Of a DNA stretch of 45,002 nt, positions 2,746-42,824 are shown piece by piece. Numbering within the stretch: position 1 is the first letter of the stretch; every line of letters begins with the position of its first letter. The position numbers and the translations under genes are program-made. The notes below the pieces were generated by a model, which was given only the letters and a program-made list of their open reading frames with translations, searched no databases and was not told where the DNA came from. The stretch spans positions 1-45,002 of the IMG/VR virus record IMGVR_UViG_3300010885_030297, one strand, 5' to 3'. This DNA comes from a virus.

Positions 2746-3147
2746 TTATTTCTTAGTCTGTTGATCTGGTTCAATGAACCCGGCAGTCTTAGATAAGTGT
2801 AAATATATTATACTATTTGCAGGCAAAGTAACCGAGATATTTGCACTATTATTTGAGGTATCTGCAAACCCAAACATTTGAGATGTTGACCAGTTGTCAT
2901 TACCATTTAATATCATCGTTGTAGAATTATTACGGGTAATTACAATTGGAAATGCGTCTGGAGCAGACCACATTATACCAGTAATATTCATTTGTATGTT
3001 AGGTTGATCTAAAGTTTCATCTGTTAATTTTAATTCAAGCGGTCCAATATTTGCTGTTCCATCAGATGTACCCGCAGAACGATCGCCTACAATTTTAACA
3101 ACCGCTTGTTGTCTTACTTTTTTAAGGACTGTACGAATTACTGGCAT
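2746..3147 (-). CDS. Conserved hypothetical protein in the prohead operon
   Basis: This 133-aa protein has a basic N-terminus (MPVIRTVLKKVRQQAVVKIV) followed by a segment that looks all-beta (SANISVTLPANSIIYLHLSKTAGF). T4 has no gene here; the T4 order runs directly from 68 to 21. It resembles short uncharacterised proteins I associate with marine T4-like phages, but no characterised family can be named. Head-operon position and small beta-rich character make a capsid accessory or decoration role possible. That is inference only. Spacing to its neighbours is 12-13 nt, so it is cotranscribed with the protease and core genes. Confidence 0.75.
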   Translation of the reverse strand: MPVIRTVLKKVRQQAVVKIVGDRSAGTSDGTANIGPLELKLTDETLDQPNIQMNITGIMWSAPDAFPIVITRNNSTTMILNGNDNWSTSQMFGFADTSNNSANISVTLPANSIIYLHLSKTAGFIEPDQQTKK

Positions 3148-5907: not shown

Positions 5908-8553
5908 TTAAGCGCCGACTTCTTCGAAGGAAACGCCTGTTCTTGTAGCTACAAAATTCAACTGGATAAAGTTGATTGCTCTTGCAGGTTTGATGTAAAT
6001 GTCTGCAACGAATTCATTGCGATCTACGATATCTGCAGTGTTGTTTGTTTCATCACACACTACTCTAAAGTCTGTAATGCCTCGACGACCTTGAACATCT
6101 CTTAAGAATGGTTCTACAAGATTCTTAAATTGAGCTCTTGTAAATGGATCGTTGAATTCAAACAACTGGAATTTTGATGCTGTTGAAATAGATTTTTCCA
6201 ACACTATAAACAATCTACGTACATTTATACGATCAAATGCACTTGGTCTTGACAATAGTGTTTTATCTCCGAACAACAATGTTCCTTGTCCTGGGAATGT
6301 AACTACAGGATTAATACCTGCTTTGTATAAATTGTCTCTATCTGTCTTAGATGGAGAATATGCCAATTTAACAACATTCTTAATTACGCCTCTGTTATAT
6401 CCTGCAGGTGAGAACCAAGGATCAGCGATATAATCTGTTCTCGCTGCAAGACCTGCAATGTCGCCATTCAATGGAACATAGCGATACTTGTCATTGTAGC
6501 GATCATATTGATATTTCCAACCAGAGTCTAGAACAGCAAAAGATGAACTTGTTAATTGATTTCTGTAATTAACAATATTTGTTGCAGCGTTTGTAGTATT
6601 AACAACATCTGTATATTGAGGAGAAGCAAATACTATGCAATCTCTTCTAGATTCTGCGATACCAATAACAGTATTAACGACACCGATATTTGTAGTTGGT
6701 CCCATTGGGATTAAACTTACATCATACAATTCGTCATTACTAAACAATTCATATCCTGCCTGTACGTTTCCAGCAGAAACTGACGCGCCGTCTACACCGC
6801 CAGACAATGTCGTAGTAACATTTGCAGTCAACTCTACGAATGTTGTTGTGCTTTGTCCGCCCCAATTTGTTCCTTGAGCAGGATGGTCAATCCATTTAAT
6901 ATATTTAGATTGATTGTTAATTACATTTTTGTAGTAATTTGTAGAATTGTCAGAATTCTTAGAATCCGATGCTTTAGATACGAATGAGAATTTTTCTAAG
7001 ATTGAGTTTCTAGTTCCAGAAATCTTACCATCGTTGTCAACAACAATTACGTGTAATTCATCTGAACTGCCGCCTCTTCCAGAAACATACGAAGATGTGT
7101 TTGGAGCTGCGTCAAACTGAGAAGCATATTGCCATCCTGAGAACGAATCATTATCTGCAAAGGATACCTTAATAGAATTTCCTAATGTACCAGGATATTT
7201 TGCAGCAAATGAACCATATCCAAATCCGCCAGACGCAAATTCGTTGTTATATACGTCTTCATTTTCAATCAACAACGCTGCTCTGTTAATAATAACATTA
7301 CCCTGTGCAACAATATTAGAAGAATCTATAATTGTTACTGTAGGAGCAGAAGAATATTGACTTCCACCATTTATAATATTAATACGATTTATAGTATATC
7401 CAACAGAAGCAATTGCTAACGCATTACTTACATATGGACGATCTTGTGTAGCTGGGGTAATAATTACGTTAGGAGTACTTGTCCATCCTGAACCTGCACT
7501 ATCTAATGTAATTTGAGAAATTAATGCTTCAATACGAACAGTTGCTTTAGCAAGAGTTCCACCAAGAGTGCTATTCTTATTAATAGTAATATTTGGGGTG
7601 TAACCATAACTACCTTGAGCACCATTTACTACGGTAATTGTATCTACAAGTCCGTAACCAACATTTGCAACAACGCTAGGTGCAACATTTACATTTGGTC
7701 CACTAATTGTTACGTTAGGTGCGCCAATATATCCATTACCCATAGATGTTATAGCAAATCCTACAACAGATGTATTTGATCTAATAATTGTAGCTGTTGC
7801 GTGATTTCCGCCAGCTACAAGGTTTCCTGAGAATACAACATTTGCGTTGCCAGAAACATTACCTGCACTGTTAATTTGCAATCCAGTTAATTTGTAATGG
7901 ATGTTCAATCTAGCAGATGCTCCTGTAGATTGTTGATTTTGTATTACAATATTGGATGCGCTGCTATAATTGTTACCCGAATCTTGTACAACTATATCTA
8001 CAATTTCGCCTGCGCCTAAAACGGCAGTTGCTGTAGCACCAGAACCGCCACCACCACTAAATGAAATTGTTGGTGGTGTAGCATAACCGTATCCTCTTAA
8101 TACCATATTAATACCGGACAAAGTGCCAGTAGAGGATAATATTGCATTACCTGTTGCTCTAGTACCACCAGAATCTGGTGTAGAGAATGTAACTGTTATA
8201 TCGTTTTGATTAATAAAGCTTGCGGGATTAGTTGATAATGTTACTCCTGTAACGGTACCGGATGGAGCAGAAACCGCATTTCTAGCTATGGCTTTATCTA
8301 CTACGCGAACTAATTTTAAATTGTTTCCATATGACAAAAAGTTTGCTGCAGTAAAGAAATATCCTGCAGTTGTGTCGTCGGGGTTTCCAAATTTTTCTAC
8401 AAGACTTCTCTCTGTATCCACAGTCGTAACTTCTTCGACCGGTCCCCATTGAAAGGCTCCCGAAAATGCCCCTGCGGTAGTTGCTACCGAAGGCACACCC
8501 GCGGTGTTGTCAATTTCGGTAACTTGTACGCCTGGTGAAAGCTGAAATGCCAT
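5908..8553 (-). CDS. gp18: Contractile tail sheath protein gp18 with large repeat insertion
   Basis: This 881-aa protein is much longer than T4 gp18 (659 aa). The N-terminal region (SPGVQVTEIDNTAGVPSVAT, residues 6-25, and YFFTAANFLSYGNNLKLVRV) and the C-terminal region (GINPVVTFPGQGTLLFGDKT, RINVRRLFIVLEKSI, FEFNDPFTRAQF) are the conserved sheath core that contracts during infection. Between them, residues about 95-425 form a repeat insertion with at least six units centred on G-x-GY-x(3)-P-x-V/I-x-I (near 154, 193, 272, 314, 354 and 397). The core resumes at ALLIENEDVYNNEF. The insertion probably projects from the sheath surface, where T4 gp18 also carries its protease-sensitive domains. 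Late promoter upstream. Confidence 0.96.
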   Translation of the reverse strand: MAFQLSPGVQVTEIDNTAGVPSVATTAGAFSGAFQWGPVEEVTTVDTERSLVEKFGNPDDTTAGYFFTAANFLSYGNNLKLVRVVDKAIARNAVSAPSGTVTGVTLSTNPASFINQNDITVTFSTPDSGGTRATGNAILSSTGTLSGINMVLRGYGYATPPTISFSGGGGSGATATAVLGAGEIVDIVVQDSGNNYSSASNIVIQNQQSTGASARLNIHYKLTGLQINSAGNVSGNANVVFSGNLVAGGNHATATIIRSNTSVVGFAITSMGNGYIGAPNVTISGPNVNVAPSVVANVGYGLVDTITVVNGAQGSYGYTPNITINKNSTLGGTLAKATVRIEALISQITLDSAGSGWTSTPNVIITPATQDRPYVSNALAIASVGYTINRINIINGGSQYSSAPTVTIIDSSNIVAQGNVIINRAALLIENEDVYNNEFASGGFGYGSFAAKYPGTLGNSIKVSFADNDSFSGWQYASQFDAAPNTSSYVSGRGGSSDELHVIVVDNDGKISGTRNSILEKFSFVSKASDSKNSDNSTNYYKNVINNQSKYIKWIDHPAQGTNWGGQSTTTFVELTANVTTTLSGGVDGASVSAGNVQAGYELFSNDELYDVSLIPMGPTTNIGVVNTVIGIAESRRDCIVFASPQYTDVVNTTNAATNIVNYRNQLTSSSFAVLDSGWKYQYDRYNDKYRYVPLNGDIAGLAARTDYIADPWFSPAGYNRGVIKNVVKLAYSPSKTDRDNLYKAGINPVVTFPGQGTLLFGDKTLLSRPSAFDRINVRRLFIVLEKSISTASKFQLFEFNDPFTRAQFKNLVEPFLRDVQGRRGITDFRVVCDETNNTADIVDRNEFVADIYIKPARAINFIQLNFVATRTGVSFEEVGA
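7279..8271 (-). repeat. Degenerate tandem beta-repeats encoded within gp18
   Basis: Residues about 95-425 of gp18 contain six or more imperfect units of 40-45 aa. Their cores include RGYGYATPPTISFSGG, GNGYIGAPNVTISG, GSGWTSTPNVIITP and GSQYSSAPTVTIID. The repeats are visible at protein level; DNA identity between units is low, indicating old duplication. The function is unknown, and an exposed decoration or adhesion domain is a plausible inference. Confidence 0.75.
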
Positions 8554-39757: not shown

Positions 39758-40336
39758 ATGTCAACATTTTCACTAAAGCAATTTCATACGCAGGTCAGAA
39801 GAACTGGTCTTGCGAAACAAAATAGGTTTGAAATTGAATTCCCAGTACCTCAGCTATTACAAAAGCGAGGAATATTTCAGGGAAGAGTAGTTAATTTATT
39901 TTGCGAGTCTACGAGCCTGCCACCGCAAAGTATAAATATAAAACAACAAAGAATATATGGTCCAGCATATCAAAGACCATTTTCATCTGACTACGGCGGC
40001 GACGGAATCAGTATGACATTTTTGCTAGATCAACCAATGGATATAAAGGCATTCTTTGATGCTTGGTTAAGTATTATTGTTGATCCTGTACAATATTATG
40101 TCCATTATCAAGACGATTATGTTGTACCAATAAAAATAAAACAATTAAATGAAAAAGATCAGGTCACCTATACTGCAGAAATAATAGATGCCTTTCCTAG
40201 AAATTATTCTATGTTAGAAGTAAATAACGCTTCAACAAATTCTGTTCACAAAATAAATGTAATGTTTGCTTATAGAAAATGGAATCCTATTCATCGTTCT
40301 ATAAATGCTTTAAGTAAATATGCGGTTAACCCTTAA
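39758..40336 (+). CDS. Tail tube-fold protein, candidate tube initiator (gp54-type)
   Basis: This 192-aa protein has the pattern of the gp19/Hcp-like tube fold in T4-like phages: FHTQVRRTGLAKQNRFEIEF, CESTSLPPQSINIKQQRIYG, GISMTFLLDQPMDIKAFFDA, IIDAFPRNYSMLEVNNAS, INVMFAYRKW. It is distinct from gp19 at 5317-5892. T4 has two further tube-fold proteins, gp48 and gp54, at the baseplate end of the tube. Because the gp48-like gene is separate, this one could fill the gp54 role, although it is shorter than T4 gp54 (320 aa). It stands directly upstream of gp26 and the tape measure, the place where siphophages carry the tube gene. The role is inferred. Confidence 0.85.
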   Translation: MSTFSLKQFHTQVRRTGLAKQNRFEIEFPVPQLLQKRGIFQGRVVNLFCESTSLPPQSINIKQQRIYGPAYQRPFSSDYGGDGISMTFLLDQPMDIKAFFDAWLSIIVDPVQYYVHYQDDYVVPIKIKQLNEKDQVTYTAEIIDAFPRNYSMLEVNNASTNSVHKINVMFAYRKWNPIHRSINALSKYAVNP

Positions 40337-40351
40337 TAAGGAAATTTGAAT

Positions 40352-41044
40352 ATGTCATTGCCAAAATTAGATACCCCTTCGTATGAATTGATTTTACCTT
40401 CAACCGGAGAAAAAATTAAATATAGACCATTTTTAGTAAAAGAATATAAAATTCTTTTAACAGCATTGGAATCTGATGGTGAAGAAATACATCGTATAAT
40501 TACAGACTTAGTAGATGTTTGTACTTATAAGAAACTTAAAATAGACGAACTACCAAATTTTGATATTGAATATTTGTTTTTAAATTTAAGAGCAAAATCA
40601 GTAGGAGAAACTACAAGCCTTACCCTTCAATGTAATAATTGCGAAAACAAAATTACATTTGATTTAGATATCACAAAGGCTGAGATTAAAAAAGATCCAG
40701 ACCATACGTCAAAGATATTGATATCAGAAAATATTGGATTAGAAATGCGATATCCAAAGTTTGATGAAATGATTAACATCTATCAAAATTTTAAATCTGA
40801 AAGCGTAGTAGAATTATTGTGCAATTGTATTAAGAATGTTTATACCGATGAACAATTATACGATAGTTATACGAAAGAAGAATTAATAGAATTTGTTAAC
40901 TCATTCTCAAAATCTCAATTTGAACTATTGGAAAAGTTCTTTTTAACTATGCCGAAAGTAGTACAGCATGTTGAACAAGAATGTCCAGCATGTAAAGCCC
41001 ACAATGAATTGAATTTAGAGGGCCTTCAAAATTTTTTCGTCTAA
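40352..41044 (+). CDS. gp26: gp26-family baseplate hub / tail assembly protein (0-frame product)
   Basis: This 230-aa product compares with 208 aa for T4 gp26. The start at ATG 40352 is preferred over TTG 40346 because AAGGA (40338-40342) lies 9 nt before it. The block ELILPSTGEKIKYRPFLVKE, YKILLTALES and the zinc-ribbon-like pairs CNNC (residues 94-97) and CPAC (211-214) match the T4_baseplate (gp26) family. T4 gp26 is an assembly protein of the central hub. The gene ends in NFFV-stop across the heptamer A AAT TTT (41029-41035), which permits -1 slippage into a 65-codon extension. It is flanked by the tube-fold gene and the tape-measure gene, so a tail-assembly-chaperone role like lambda gpG is inferred. 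Confidence 0.9.
   Translation: MSLPKLDTPSYELILPSTGEKIKYRPFLVKEYKILLTALESDGEEIHRIITDLVDVCTYKKLKIDELPNFDIEYLFLNLRAKSVGETTSLTLQCNNCENKITFDLDITKAEIKKDPDHTSKILISENIGLEMRYPKFDEMINIYQNFKSESVVELLCNCIKNVYTDEQLYDSYTKEELIEFVNSFSKSQFELLEKFFLTMPKVVQHVEQECPACKAHNELNLEGLQNFFV
41029..41035 (+). promoter_or_regulatory. Putative -1 ribosomal frameshift site at the end of gp26
   Basis: A AAT TTT in the gp26 frame, an X XXY YYZ slippery heptamer, followed by T TCG TCT AAC; the 0-frame stop TAA is at 41042-41044, only 6 nt after the site. A weak imperfect stem (GTCT at 41039-41042 and CTC at 41045-41047 with GAGGGAC at 41056-41062, bulged AA) may follow; its spacing is short, so it may not matter. Confidence 0.7.
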
Positions 41045-41232
41045 CTCTTTCACACGAGGGACTCCTTAACTTTTATCAGCTTAATTTCACATTAATGAAT
41101 CAGCATGGGTATTCATTATATGATATAGAAAATATGCTACCGTGGGAAAGAGATATTTACGTTCAAATGTTAATTAATTATGTCAACGAACAAAACGAAA
41201 AATTAAAAGCAAAGCAACAAGCGAGTAAATAA
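41035..41232 (+). CDS. -1 frame extension of gp26 (gene 51 position), product of frameshift
   Basis: The frame stays open from a stop at 41005-41007 to TAA at 41230-41232. Read after slippage it gives FRLTLSHEGLLNFYQLNFTL, then MNQHGYSLYDIENMLPWERD and IYVQMLINYVNEQ, ending KQQASK: 65 residues, making a 293-aa fusion with gp26. No ATG, GTG or TTG occurs in frame before the ATG at 41094, which has no Shine-Dalgarno and would discard the LNFYQLNF part. A separate gene is therefore unlikely. The segment lies where T4 has gene 51 (hub assembly catalyst, after 26), but homology to T4 gp51 is not claimed. It corresponds in layout to the T part of lambda gpGT. Confidence 0.75.
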   Translation, partial: FRLTLSHEGLLNFYQLNFTLMNQHGYSLYDIENMLPWERDIYVQMLINYVNEQNEKLKAKQQASK

Positions 41233-41234
41233 AA

Positions 41235-42824
41235 ATGGCATTACCCCAAAATCCATTAAGCAATAGTGACAGAGCAGTATTTGACACATTGAATGCGCAG
41301 AACGACAATCTAAAAGCGCAAACAAAAGTCTTACATAAACTATCAGACAGTATTGCCGACCAACGTAAAGAATTTTCAGAACTTCGAAAATCTTTTAGAG
41401 AATCTCAGAAAGAATTCTTTGCTGGTAATGATAAGGGAATGTCTGAAATACGAAAATATTTTGAGAAGTATAAAGCTGCTCCAAGCGGAGATTCTAGGAT
41501 ACGGGATAAAGACCAATCCACCGGATTTTTTAAAAATGCTTTAAATAAATTATTTGGACCATCTAAATATCAACAAAAGACAATAGATGAAATAACAAGA
41601 CTGCGCGAAATAACCGAACTACAAGCATTAGATATTAACTTTATAAAAAGACAAAATGAAGATGGCCCTCGCGCGCGAGAAAGAGAACTATTAGCTCAGG
41701 CGATCGCGGATAAAATAAATGCAGGCACCTCAAATAATAGCGGAGAAAGTGGTCCAGGATTATTTGGAACAATAGGAAGACTATCTGCAGGCCTACTAGT
41801 AGGCCTTGGTTCAATCGTCGGAACCTTAGCATCCACATTAGTGTCCGCATTAGGCCGACTGTGGTCTGTTCTTATGGATATTTTAGGAGCAGTCGGCGGA
41901 GCATTTAGCGGTCGAGGACCTACTGCTACACCAAGTAAGACAGGTATTCCTCCAATGGAAGAGCCTACTAAAACACCGCCCACAAATTCAAACCAACAAA
42001 GATTGCCAGGAAAAGAAATTCCAAAATTAGAAGGACCCAGAGCGCCCATTGATATGGGAGAATTAAAACAGAACAAAACTGGAGTATATGTGCCAGAAGG
42101 TGTTGCTGGGCAGGGTATTAAATTTGGAATATTACAAGCATTGAAAAAATTTGGACCTTATGGACTAGCTGCTGGTACTGTTCTAGGTGAACTATTGGGC
42201 GAAAAGTCTGCGCCACCTCCAGAACAAAATGATCCAGAAAACCCAATGCAAAAATTAGATAAGATGCTGGAAGATACTTGGTTAGGAAAAGCTTGGAACT
42301 CTACAAAAAATAAAGCGGCAGAATTAAGTTTTAGTGCTACAGAAGGTGAAGCTAATAGAGCAAGAAGAGATTTTGCGGAAAATGATCCTAGAAGACTTGA
42401 TAAAAAAATTGACGATGTAGAAGCAAATACTGATATGTTTAATGACGCAATTAAACAAGTTGTCAATGGTCTTGTAGGTATGGGCGACGCTTTAGATGAT
42501 GTTGCTAATCAGGTTATAATCGATTCTCGAAAAATGTTAGCAGACCCCTTAAATAAATTGGGAGAAATAGAACTAGCGGGCGGACAAAAAATAAATCTAA
42601 TGCCAAATCTAGGTGATGCTGCATTTGACGTATTAAAAGAAAGCTACGATGATAGTAAGGCAATGACTAAAGCATTGGCAGAAGGTGCAGGCACAGTTAT
42701 TAATAATGTATACAATAATATGCAAGAAGGTGGAAAGGGAGCAACATTAGTTCCATTATCCGCAAGTTCTATTGCAACAACAACCTCAATGTCTGCATAT
42801 TTAAGAATGCGAGGATTCCGTTAA
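41235..42824 (+). CDS. gp29: Tape measure protein, gp29-like
   Basis: This 529-aa protein compares with 590 aa for T4 gp29. Residues 1-170 are largely helical with coiled-coil character (LNAQNDNLKAQTKVLHKLSD; QRKEFSELRKSFRESQKEFF). Residues about 180-228 form a hydrophobic Gly/Ala/Leu segment (IGRLSAGLLVGLGSIVGTLA; STLVSALGRLWSVLMDILGA) as in tape measures that contact the host membrane. A Pro/Thr-rich linker, a second helical part and a Gly/Ser-rich end follow. Such a layout, and the place directly after the tail-assembly chaperone pair, identify it as the tape measure that sets tail length. The ATG has no clear Shine-Dalgarno and lies 2 nt after the frameshift ORF stop, implying translational coupling. 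Confidence 0.85.
   Translation: MALPQNPLSNSDRAVFDTLNAQNDNLKAQTKVLHKLSDSIADQRKEFSELRKSFRESQKEFFAGNDKGMSEIRKYFEKYKAAPSGDSRIRDKDQSTGFFKNALNKLFGPSKYQQKTIDEITRLREITELQALDINFIKRQNEDGPRARERELLAQAIADKINAGTSNNSGESGPGLFGTIGRLSAGLLVGLGSIVGTLASTLVSALGRLWSVLMDILGAVGGAFSGRGPTATPSKTGIPPMEEPTKTPPTNSNQQRLPGKEIPKLEGPRAPIDMGELKQNKTGVYVPEGVAGQGIKFGILQALKKFGPYGLAAGTVLGELLGEKSAPPPEQNDPENPMQKLDKMLEDTWLGKAWNSTKNKAAELSFSATEGEANRARRDFAENDPRRLDKKIDDVEANTDMFNDAIKQVVNGLVGMGDALDDVANQVIIDSRKMLADPLNKLGEIELAGGQKINLMPNLGDAAFDVLKESYDDSKAMTKALAEGAGTVINNVYNNMQEGGKGATLVPLSASSIATTTSMSAYLRMRGFR

Follow-up and report, generated by a model that had tools for sequence, protein, structure and literature searches.

The gp26 gene of an uncultured T4-like bacterial virus (IMG/VR record IMGVR_UViG_3300010885_030297) very probably gives rise, through a programmed -1 ribosomal frameshift near its 3' end, to two tail assembly chaperones (TACs), a short form that is gp26 itself and a long form in which gp26 is fused to gp51. 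This reading was drawn from sequence and from comparison with relatives, the window being the whole stretch of DNA that was analysed (45,002 nucleotides). A frameshift joining gp26 to a C-terminal extension had been proposed in an earlier note on the same DNA, and the conservation of the slip site together with the selection acting on the extension now strongly supports it.

The gp26 reading frame and its predicted slip site

The features discussed below are as follows:

39758–40336, plus strand: upstream neighbour, gp54/tail-tube family (phrog_45 tail tube, 2.6e-32)
40352–41044, plus strand: gp26, predicted short form (TAC-N), 230 aa from ATG to TAA, identified by PF12322, phrog_150 and translation
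41018–41022, plus strand: GAGGG, putative Shine-Dalgarno-like stimulator preceding the heptamer by 9 nt
41029–41035, plus strand: A AAT TTT, the heptamer of the earlier note, present and not conserved
41032–41038, plus strand: T TTT TTC (Phe-Phe), predicted -1 slip site, kept in 243 relatives
41038–41232, plus strand: -1-frame extension (gp51, TAC-C), 64 codons after the slip plus the stop, without a start of its own
41045–41062, plus strand: short hairpin (CUC...GAG region) of low stability directly behind the stop, possibly a stimulator but unsupported as such in the window's clade
41235–42824, plus strand: 529-aa ORF, a tape measure candidate on the grounds of its place and length only

Translation of the ORF from the ATG at 40352 to the TAA at 41042–41044 gives a 230-aa protein, which matches the PF12322 T4_baseplate profile over residues 9–229 (1.9e-59, 201.5 bits for a cut-off of 24.5) and phrog_150 (9e-63). 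The Pfam match spans the whole protein and exceeds the curated cut-off, assigning the predicted product to the T4 gp26 family; the short form and T4 gp26 thus belong to the same family. The gp26 frame ends over the slippery run, as the earlier note had described, and the -1 frame is open from 41008, with a stop immediately before, to the TAA at 41230–41232. Within the window, no ATG, GTG, TTG or CTG was found in this frame from 41008 to the ATG at 41095, and no Shine-Dalgarno-like sequence was seen before that ATG (TTTTATCAGCTTAATTTCACATTAATG). The absence of the first three start codons and of a Shine-Dalgarno had already been pointed out and was confirmed, as was the length of the fusion, but the ATG had been placed at 41094 and needs to be moved by one position. 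Joining the two frames at Phe229 and adding the 64 codons of the -1 frame yields 293 aa, with LQNFFRLTLS as the junction peptide, a sequence that is identical whichever of the two heptamers (A AAT TTT or T TTT TTC) slips.

The choice between these heptamers came from the relatives, which were IMG/VR viral contigs fetched by protein similarity and isolate phages (Kyanoviridae, Vibrio phage nt-1, Pseudomonas phage Milchi, and Aeromonas, Stenotrophomonas, Agrobacterium and Desulfovibrio phages). Inspection of their gp26 ends, a check suggested by the earlier note, revealed T TTT TTN in the gp26 frame in 243 of the 245 relatives examined whose end was readable. These 243 correspond to 191 distinct junctions, among which the heptamer varies as T TTT TTC/A/T, with T TTT TTC in 184/191, and the stop follows one codon after the heptamer in 184 of the 191. 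Elsewhere in gp26 the in-frame frequency of T TTT TTN is 0.00096 per codon, which sets the chance level. A AAT TTT is indeed present at the place given in the earlier note, but it was rejected as the slip site: at the same position the relatives carry C GAT TTT, A AGT TTT, G AAT TTT and others, and what they keep is T TTT TTC, one codon later.

A set of 53 lineages below 75% nucleotide identity was used to examine this conservation at the level of codons. Outside Met and Trp columns, no wobble position in gp26 is invariant except those of the XXT and TTT codons, and 57 sequences gave the same picture. The codon preceding TTT encodes Asn, Asp, Ser or Ala, yet always ends in T. Reading in the -1 frame begins only downstream of these invariant wobble Ts, so their conservation cannot be due to overlap coding. 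The recurrence of the site also settles whether one intact gene might have been split by a sequencing or assembly error, homopolymers being classic places for such a frame break: 243 contigs and isolate genomes whose flanking sequences have diverged share the same break, which refutes an artefact and leaves it practically no probability.

The heptamer is absent only from two distant Ackermannviridae-type relatives, PhaxI and K387 (TTTTC), where gp26 ends in GAG ATT TTC (around 3795) and TCA CTT TTC (around 3567), respectively. Both have an open, gp51-like -1 frame of roughly 55–60 codons without the standard heptamer, and another slip mechanism may apply at their junctions.

The extension and its counterpart in T4

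The -1 frame is open for 56–68 codons in 190 of 191 junctions. The dN/dS ratio is about 0.30 for the codons that follow the gp26 stop up to the first ATG, and 0.31 downstream of that ATG; purifying selection acts on the start-less part of the -1 frame. Profile searches matched the extension to phrog_634, 'baseplate hub assembly catalyst' (8.9e-25, profile positions 56–119 of 121), and to the C-terminal part of phrog_150 (7.6e-7). As judged from these matches, the extension belongs to the gp51 family and corresponds to the C-terminal domain of T4 gp51; the extension put forward in the earlier note is not new.

In T4, gene 26 (115802–116428, minus strand) and gene 51 (116479–117228, plus strand) lie on opposite strands without a frameshift between them, whereas here the two parts are joined by a predicted frameshift. 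The T4-type gp51 profile aligned with gp26 over residues 6–200 (hhalign 97.6%) and with the extension over residues 200–246 (95.1%), the two alignments meeting where the frameshift joins gp26 and the extension. Moreover, T4 gp51 matched phrog_150 from position 13 to 280, that is over its whole length. The two-part alignment and the whole-length match imply that T4 encodes as one gene what frameshifting is predicted to yield in this phage, so that, on the basis of these profile comparisons, T4 gp51 appears as a natural counterpart, encoded by a single gene, of the predicted 293-aa fusion.

Alternatively, gp51 could be a separate short gene whose translation begins at the ATG at 41095 or at a non-standard start, through coupling or reinitiation once gp26 has terminated. 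A separate gp51 is annotated in most of the cyanophage records examined, an ATG at +53 is common and one at +5 frequent in marine relatives, the ATG overlaps the stop in nt-1 and YB07, and a few relatives have TAATG or TGATG overlaps. A separately started gp51 could thus be present in addition in cyanophages with a +5 ATG or such overlaps. Several observations nevertheless make a separate gene highly improbable as the explanation of this locus. The window offers neither a start before 41095 nor a Shine-Dalgarno at that position, and initiation there would lose about 19 codons that are under purifying selection equal to that of the remainder. This ATG is not conserved in the L018, L025 and L029 contigs or in the L005 group, the first three being devoid of any ATG before +92. 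In addition, the invariant T-run, as well as the GAGGG without a start behind it, would be left unexplained, and T4 gp51 carries a gp26-like part in the same chain.

One isolate differs at this place: Synechococcus phage S-SCSM1 keeps TCT TTT TTC (around 2979–3047) with an interrupted -1 frame. About 11 additional bases behind the gp26 stop lead to a -1-frame stop four codons on, and its gp51 is found in a different frame, where it has an ATG of its own. This interruption is due to a sequencing problem, or else the frameshift has been lost naturally in this phage.

Candidate stimulatory elements

Internal Shine-Dalgarno sequences stimulate -1 shifts at a spacing of 9–14 nt, according to a review (PMC5009743), and no -1-frame start codon is found at initiation distance from the GAGGG of the window. 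The Glu codon at this position is GAG in 17 of 18 junctions of the window's clade, versus 13% gene-wide, and in 121 of 142 junctions of the other relatives, versus 29%. Over the 53 lineages, the GAG fraction of this column (0.83) is the highest of 11 well-populated Glu columns, the next GAG-rich one reaching 0.70. These codon preferences indicate that GAGGG is favoured by selection against codon usage.

A structure 3' of the stop was considered as a second stimulator. The hairpin of the window folded no better than shuffled sequences (z = -0.62 against synonymous-codon and 0.01 against dinucleotide shuffles), and a 3' stem was rejected as a stimulator in the window's own clade, where the fold was not better than shuffles. 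Many marine relatives have strong 3' stems at the junction, whereas those of the window's clade are weak. For 45 cluster representatives, the junction fold had a mean z of -1.90 against synonymous-codon shuffles, compared with -0.25 for a control 60 nt further (Wilcoxon p 2.7e-7 for junction versus control). The P-SSM2/S-PRM1-like subset showed an 11-bp stem with 85.9% of cells paired, against at most 47% when the stem was slid, and its covariation was modest (12 double-changed cells versus 4.6 in shuffles).

The same review (PMC5009743) describes the dnaX-type signal, which shares with the present one an internal Shine-Dalgarno about 9–10 nt before the heptamer and, sometimes, a 3' stem-loop. 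The slip sequences differ, A AAA AAG in dnaX and U UUU UUC here, and the 3' hairpin of the window's clade is weak. We tentatively envisage, with a confidence falling a little short of even, that a dnaX-like internal Shine-Dalgarno and U UUU UUC together set the gp26 frameshift of T4-like phages, and that only some marine lineages acquired or reinforced a 3' stem-loop. Interchangeable stimulators would then tune the ratio of short to long chaperone in each lineage, and S-SCSM1 would perhaps represent a step towards the separate genes of T4.

The nature of these elements also bears on whether the polymerase, rather than the ribosome, slips. RNA polymerase slippage on the run of six Ts would produce a share of mRNAs of altered length in which both frames are joined, and transcriptional slippage on runs is known, as the same review states (PMC5009743). 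The conserved pattern is nevertheless a frame-registered heptamer, T TTT TTC/A/T, beyond mere run length, and a Shine-Dalgarno-like element spaced at 9 nt, like the stem-loops at the junction, fits ribosomal control. Six Ts, furthermore, make a short run for bacterial polymerase slippage, and we regard this origin of the fusion as very unlikely.

Predicted products and relation to known systems

Under ribosomal frameshifting, ribosomes would translate gp26 up to AAT TTT TTC, and most of them would continue through GTC to the TAA at 41042, releasing the 230-aa short form, which would thus be in excess. With two Phe tRNAs on TTT TTC, some would slip back by one base to TTT TTT, presumably aided by pairing of the Shine-Dalgarno-like GAGGG behind the ribosome. 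The slipped ribosomes would bypass the stop and read 64 more codons, giving the 293-aa gp26-gp51 fusion. By homology to T4 gp26 and gp51, the two products are most likely a short and a long tail assembly chaperone, a role for which we draw on homology and the literature, and their client is probably the 529-aa product of the next gene.

The locus presents the hallmarks of a frameshift-type TAC (TAC-N/TAC-NC): a -1 extension that overlaps the 3' end of the short ORF without a start of its own and a conserved slippery heptamer at the overlap. It is flanked by the phrog_45 tail tube match upstream and by the 529-aa ORF downstream. A long ORF closely follows the extension in most relatives where it is readable, as it does in the window, and its length varies from roughly 380 to 950 aa, as expected for a tape measure protein. 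The 529-aa ORF contains hydrophobic stretches and a coiled-coil-like N-terminus. It had no significant Pfam or PHROG family match, and a tape measure identity by homology was not retained, the family search and a profile comparison with T4 gp29 having given nothing. Elsewhere in the window, the tail sheath gene (5908–8553, minus strand) encodes 881 aa for a sheath profile of 496 positions, and its residues about 98–285, which also match virion structural and tail fibre families, seem to form an inserted domain.

The structure models were confident (pLDDT 88.5 and 86.8). Fold searches of the PDB with the T4-type gp51 model returned no match at E <= 0.001 and no solved tail chaperone, and a PDB sequence search for a solved tail chaperone relative returned none; in the viral library, fold matches were, where named, mostly to gp26-type baseplate hub proteins. 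A mixed profile built from 13 distantly related gp26 proteins diverged too strongly to be of use in searches.

The analogy with lambda gpG/gpGT, drawn in the earlier note, finds strong support: both systems combine a -1 shift, predicted here, close to the 3' end of a short ORF with a C-terminal extension in the -1 frame and a long ORF behind it. They differ in the slip sequence, which is G GGA AAG in lambda, and no match to a solved tail chaperone fold was found here. A 2022 study by Vladimirov et al. reportedly described TAC-N and TAC-NC in T4-like phages, with frameshifting conserved in several groups, and is said to have described T4 itself as having two separate genes, 26 for the short and 51 for the long form. 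In PMC12846349, Vladimirov, Gautam and Davidson (Virology 2022, 566:9-15) are credited with poly-T -1 frameshift signals in T4-like TAC-N genes, and in PMC10885494 the same work is credited with the finding that in some T4-like phages the short protein and the long fusion have a gene each. The frameshifted gp26-gp51 arrangement is thus already reported for T4-like phages and is known in kind. The view that no frameshift had been described for the gp26 family is therefore outdated, and the statement that genes 26 and 51 are separate holds for T4 itself, given their coordinates and opposite strands. Compared with that work, the present case concerns an uncultured virus, and the exact heptamer, the Shine-Dalgarno-like stimulator and the clade-specific stem-loop were derived here. 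Pseudomonas phage Adele (Vandenendeviridae/Andersonviridae), as described in PMC12846349, likewise has a poly-T slip site at the end of TAC-N and a long uninterrupted -1 frame; it differs in its motif, GTTTTT, and in belonging to another phage group.

Our reading also bears on the annotation of marine phages. Sullivan et al. 2010 (PMC3037559) noted that gp51 of cyanophages and marine vibriophages is without about 200 N-terminal residues; these would be missing because gp26 supplies them through the frameshift. In the records of S-WAM1 and S-PRM1 gp51 is not listed, and in that of Mosig it is shortened, the conserved -1 frame being wholly or partly unannotated in all three. Many database records still hold a free-standing gp51 or none, so that the product would be misannotated in abundant marine phages. 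Finally, one protein pair that would be made by frameshifting in one branch and from two genes in another would make the evolution of recoding testable.
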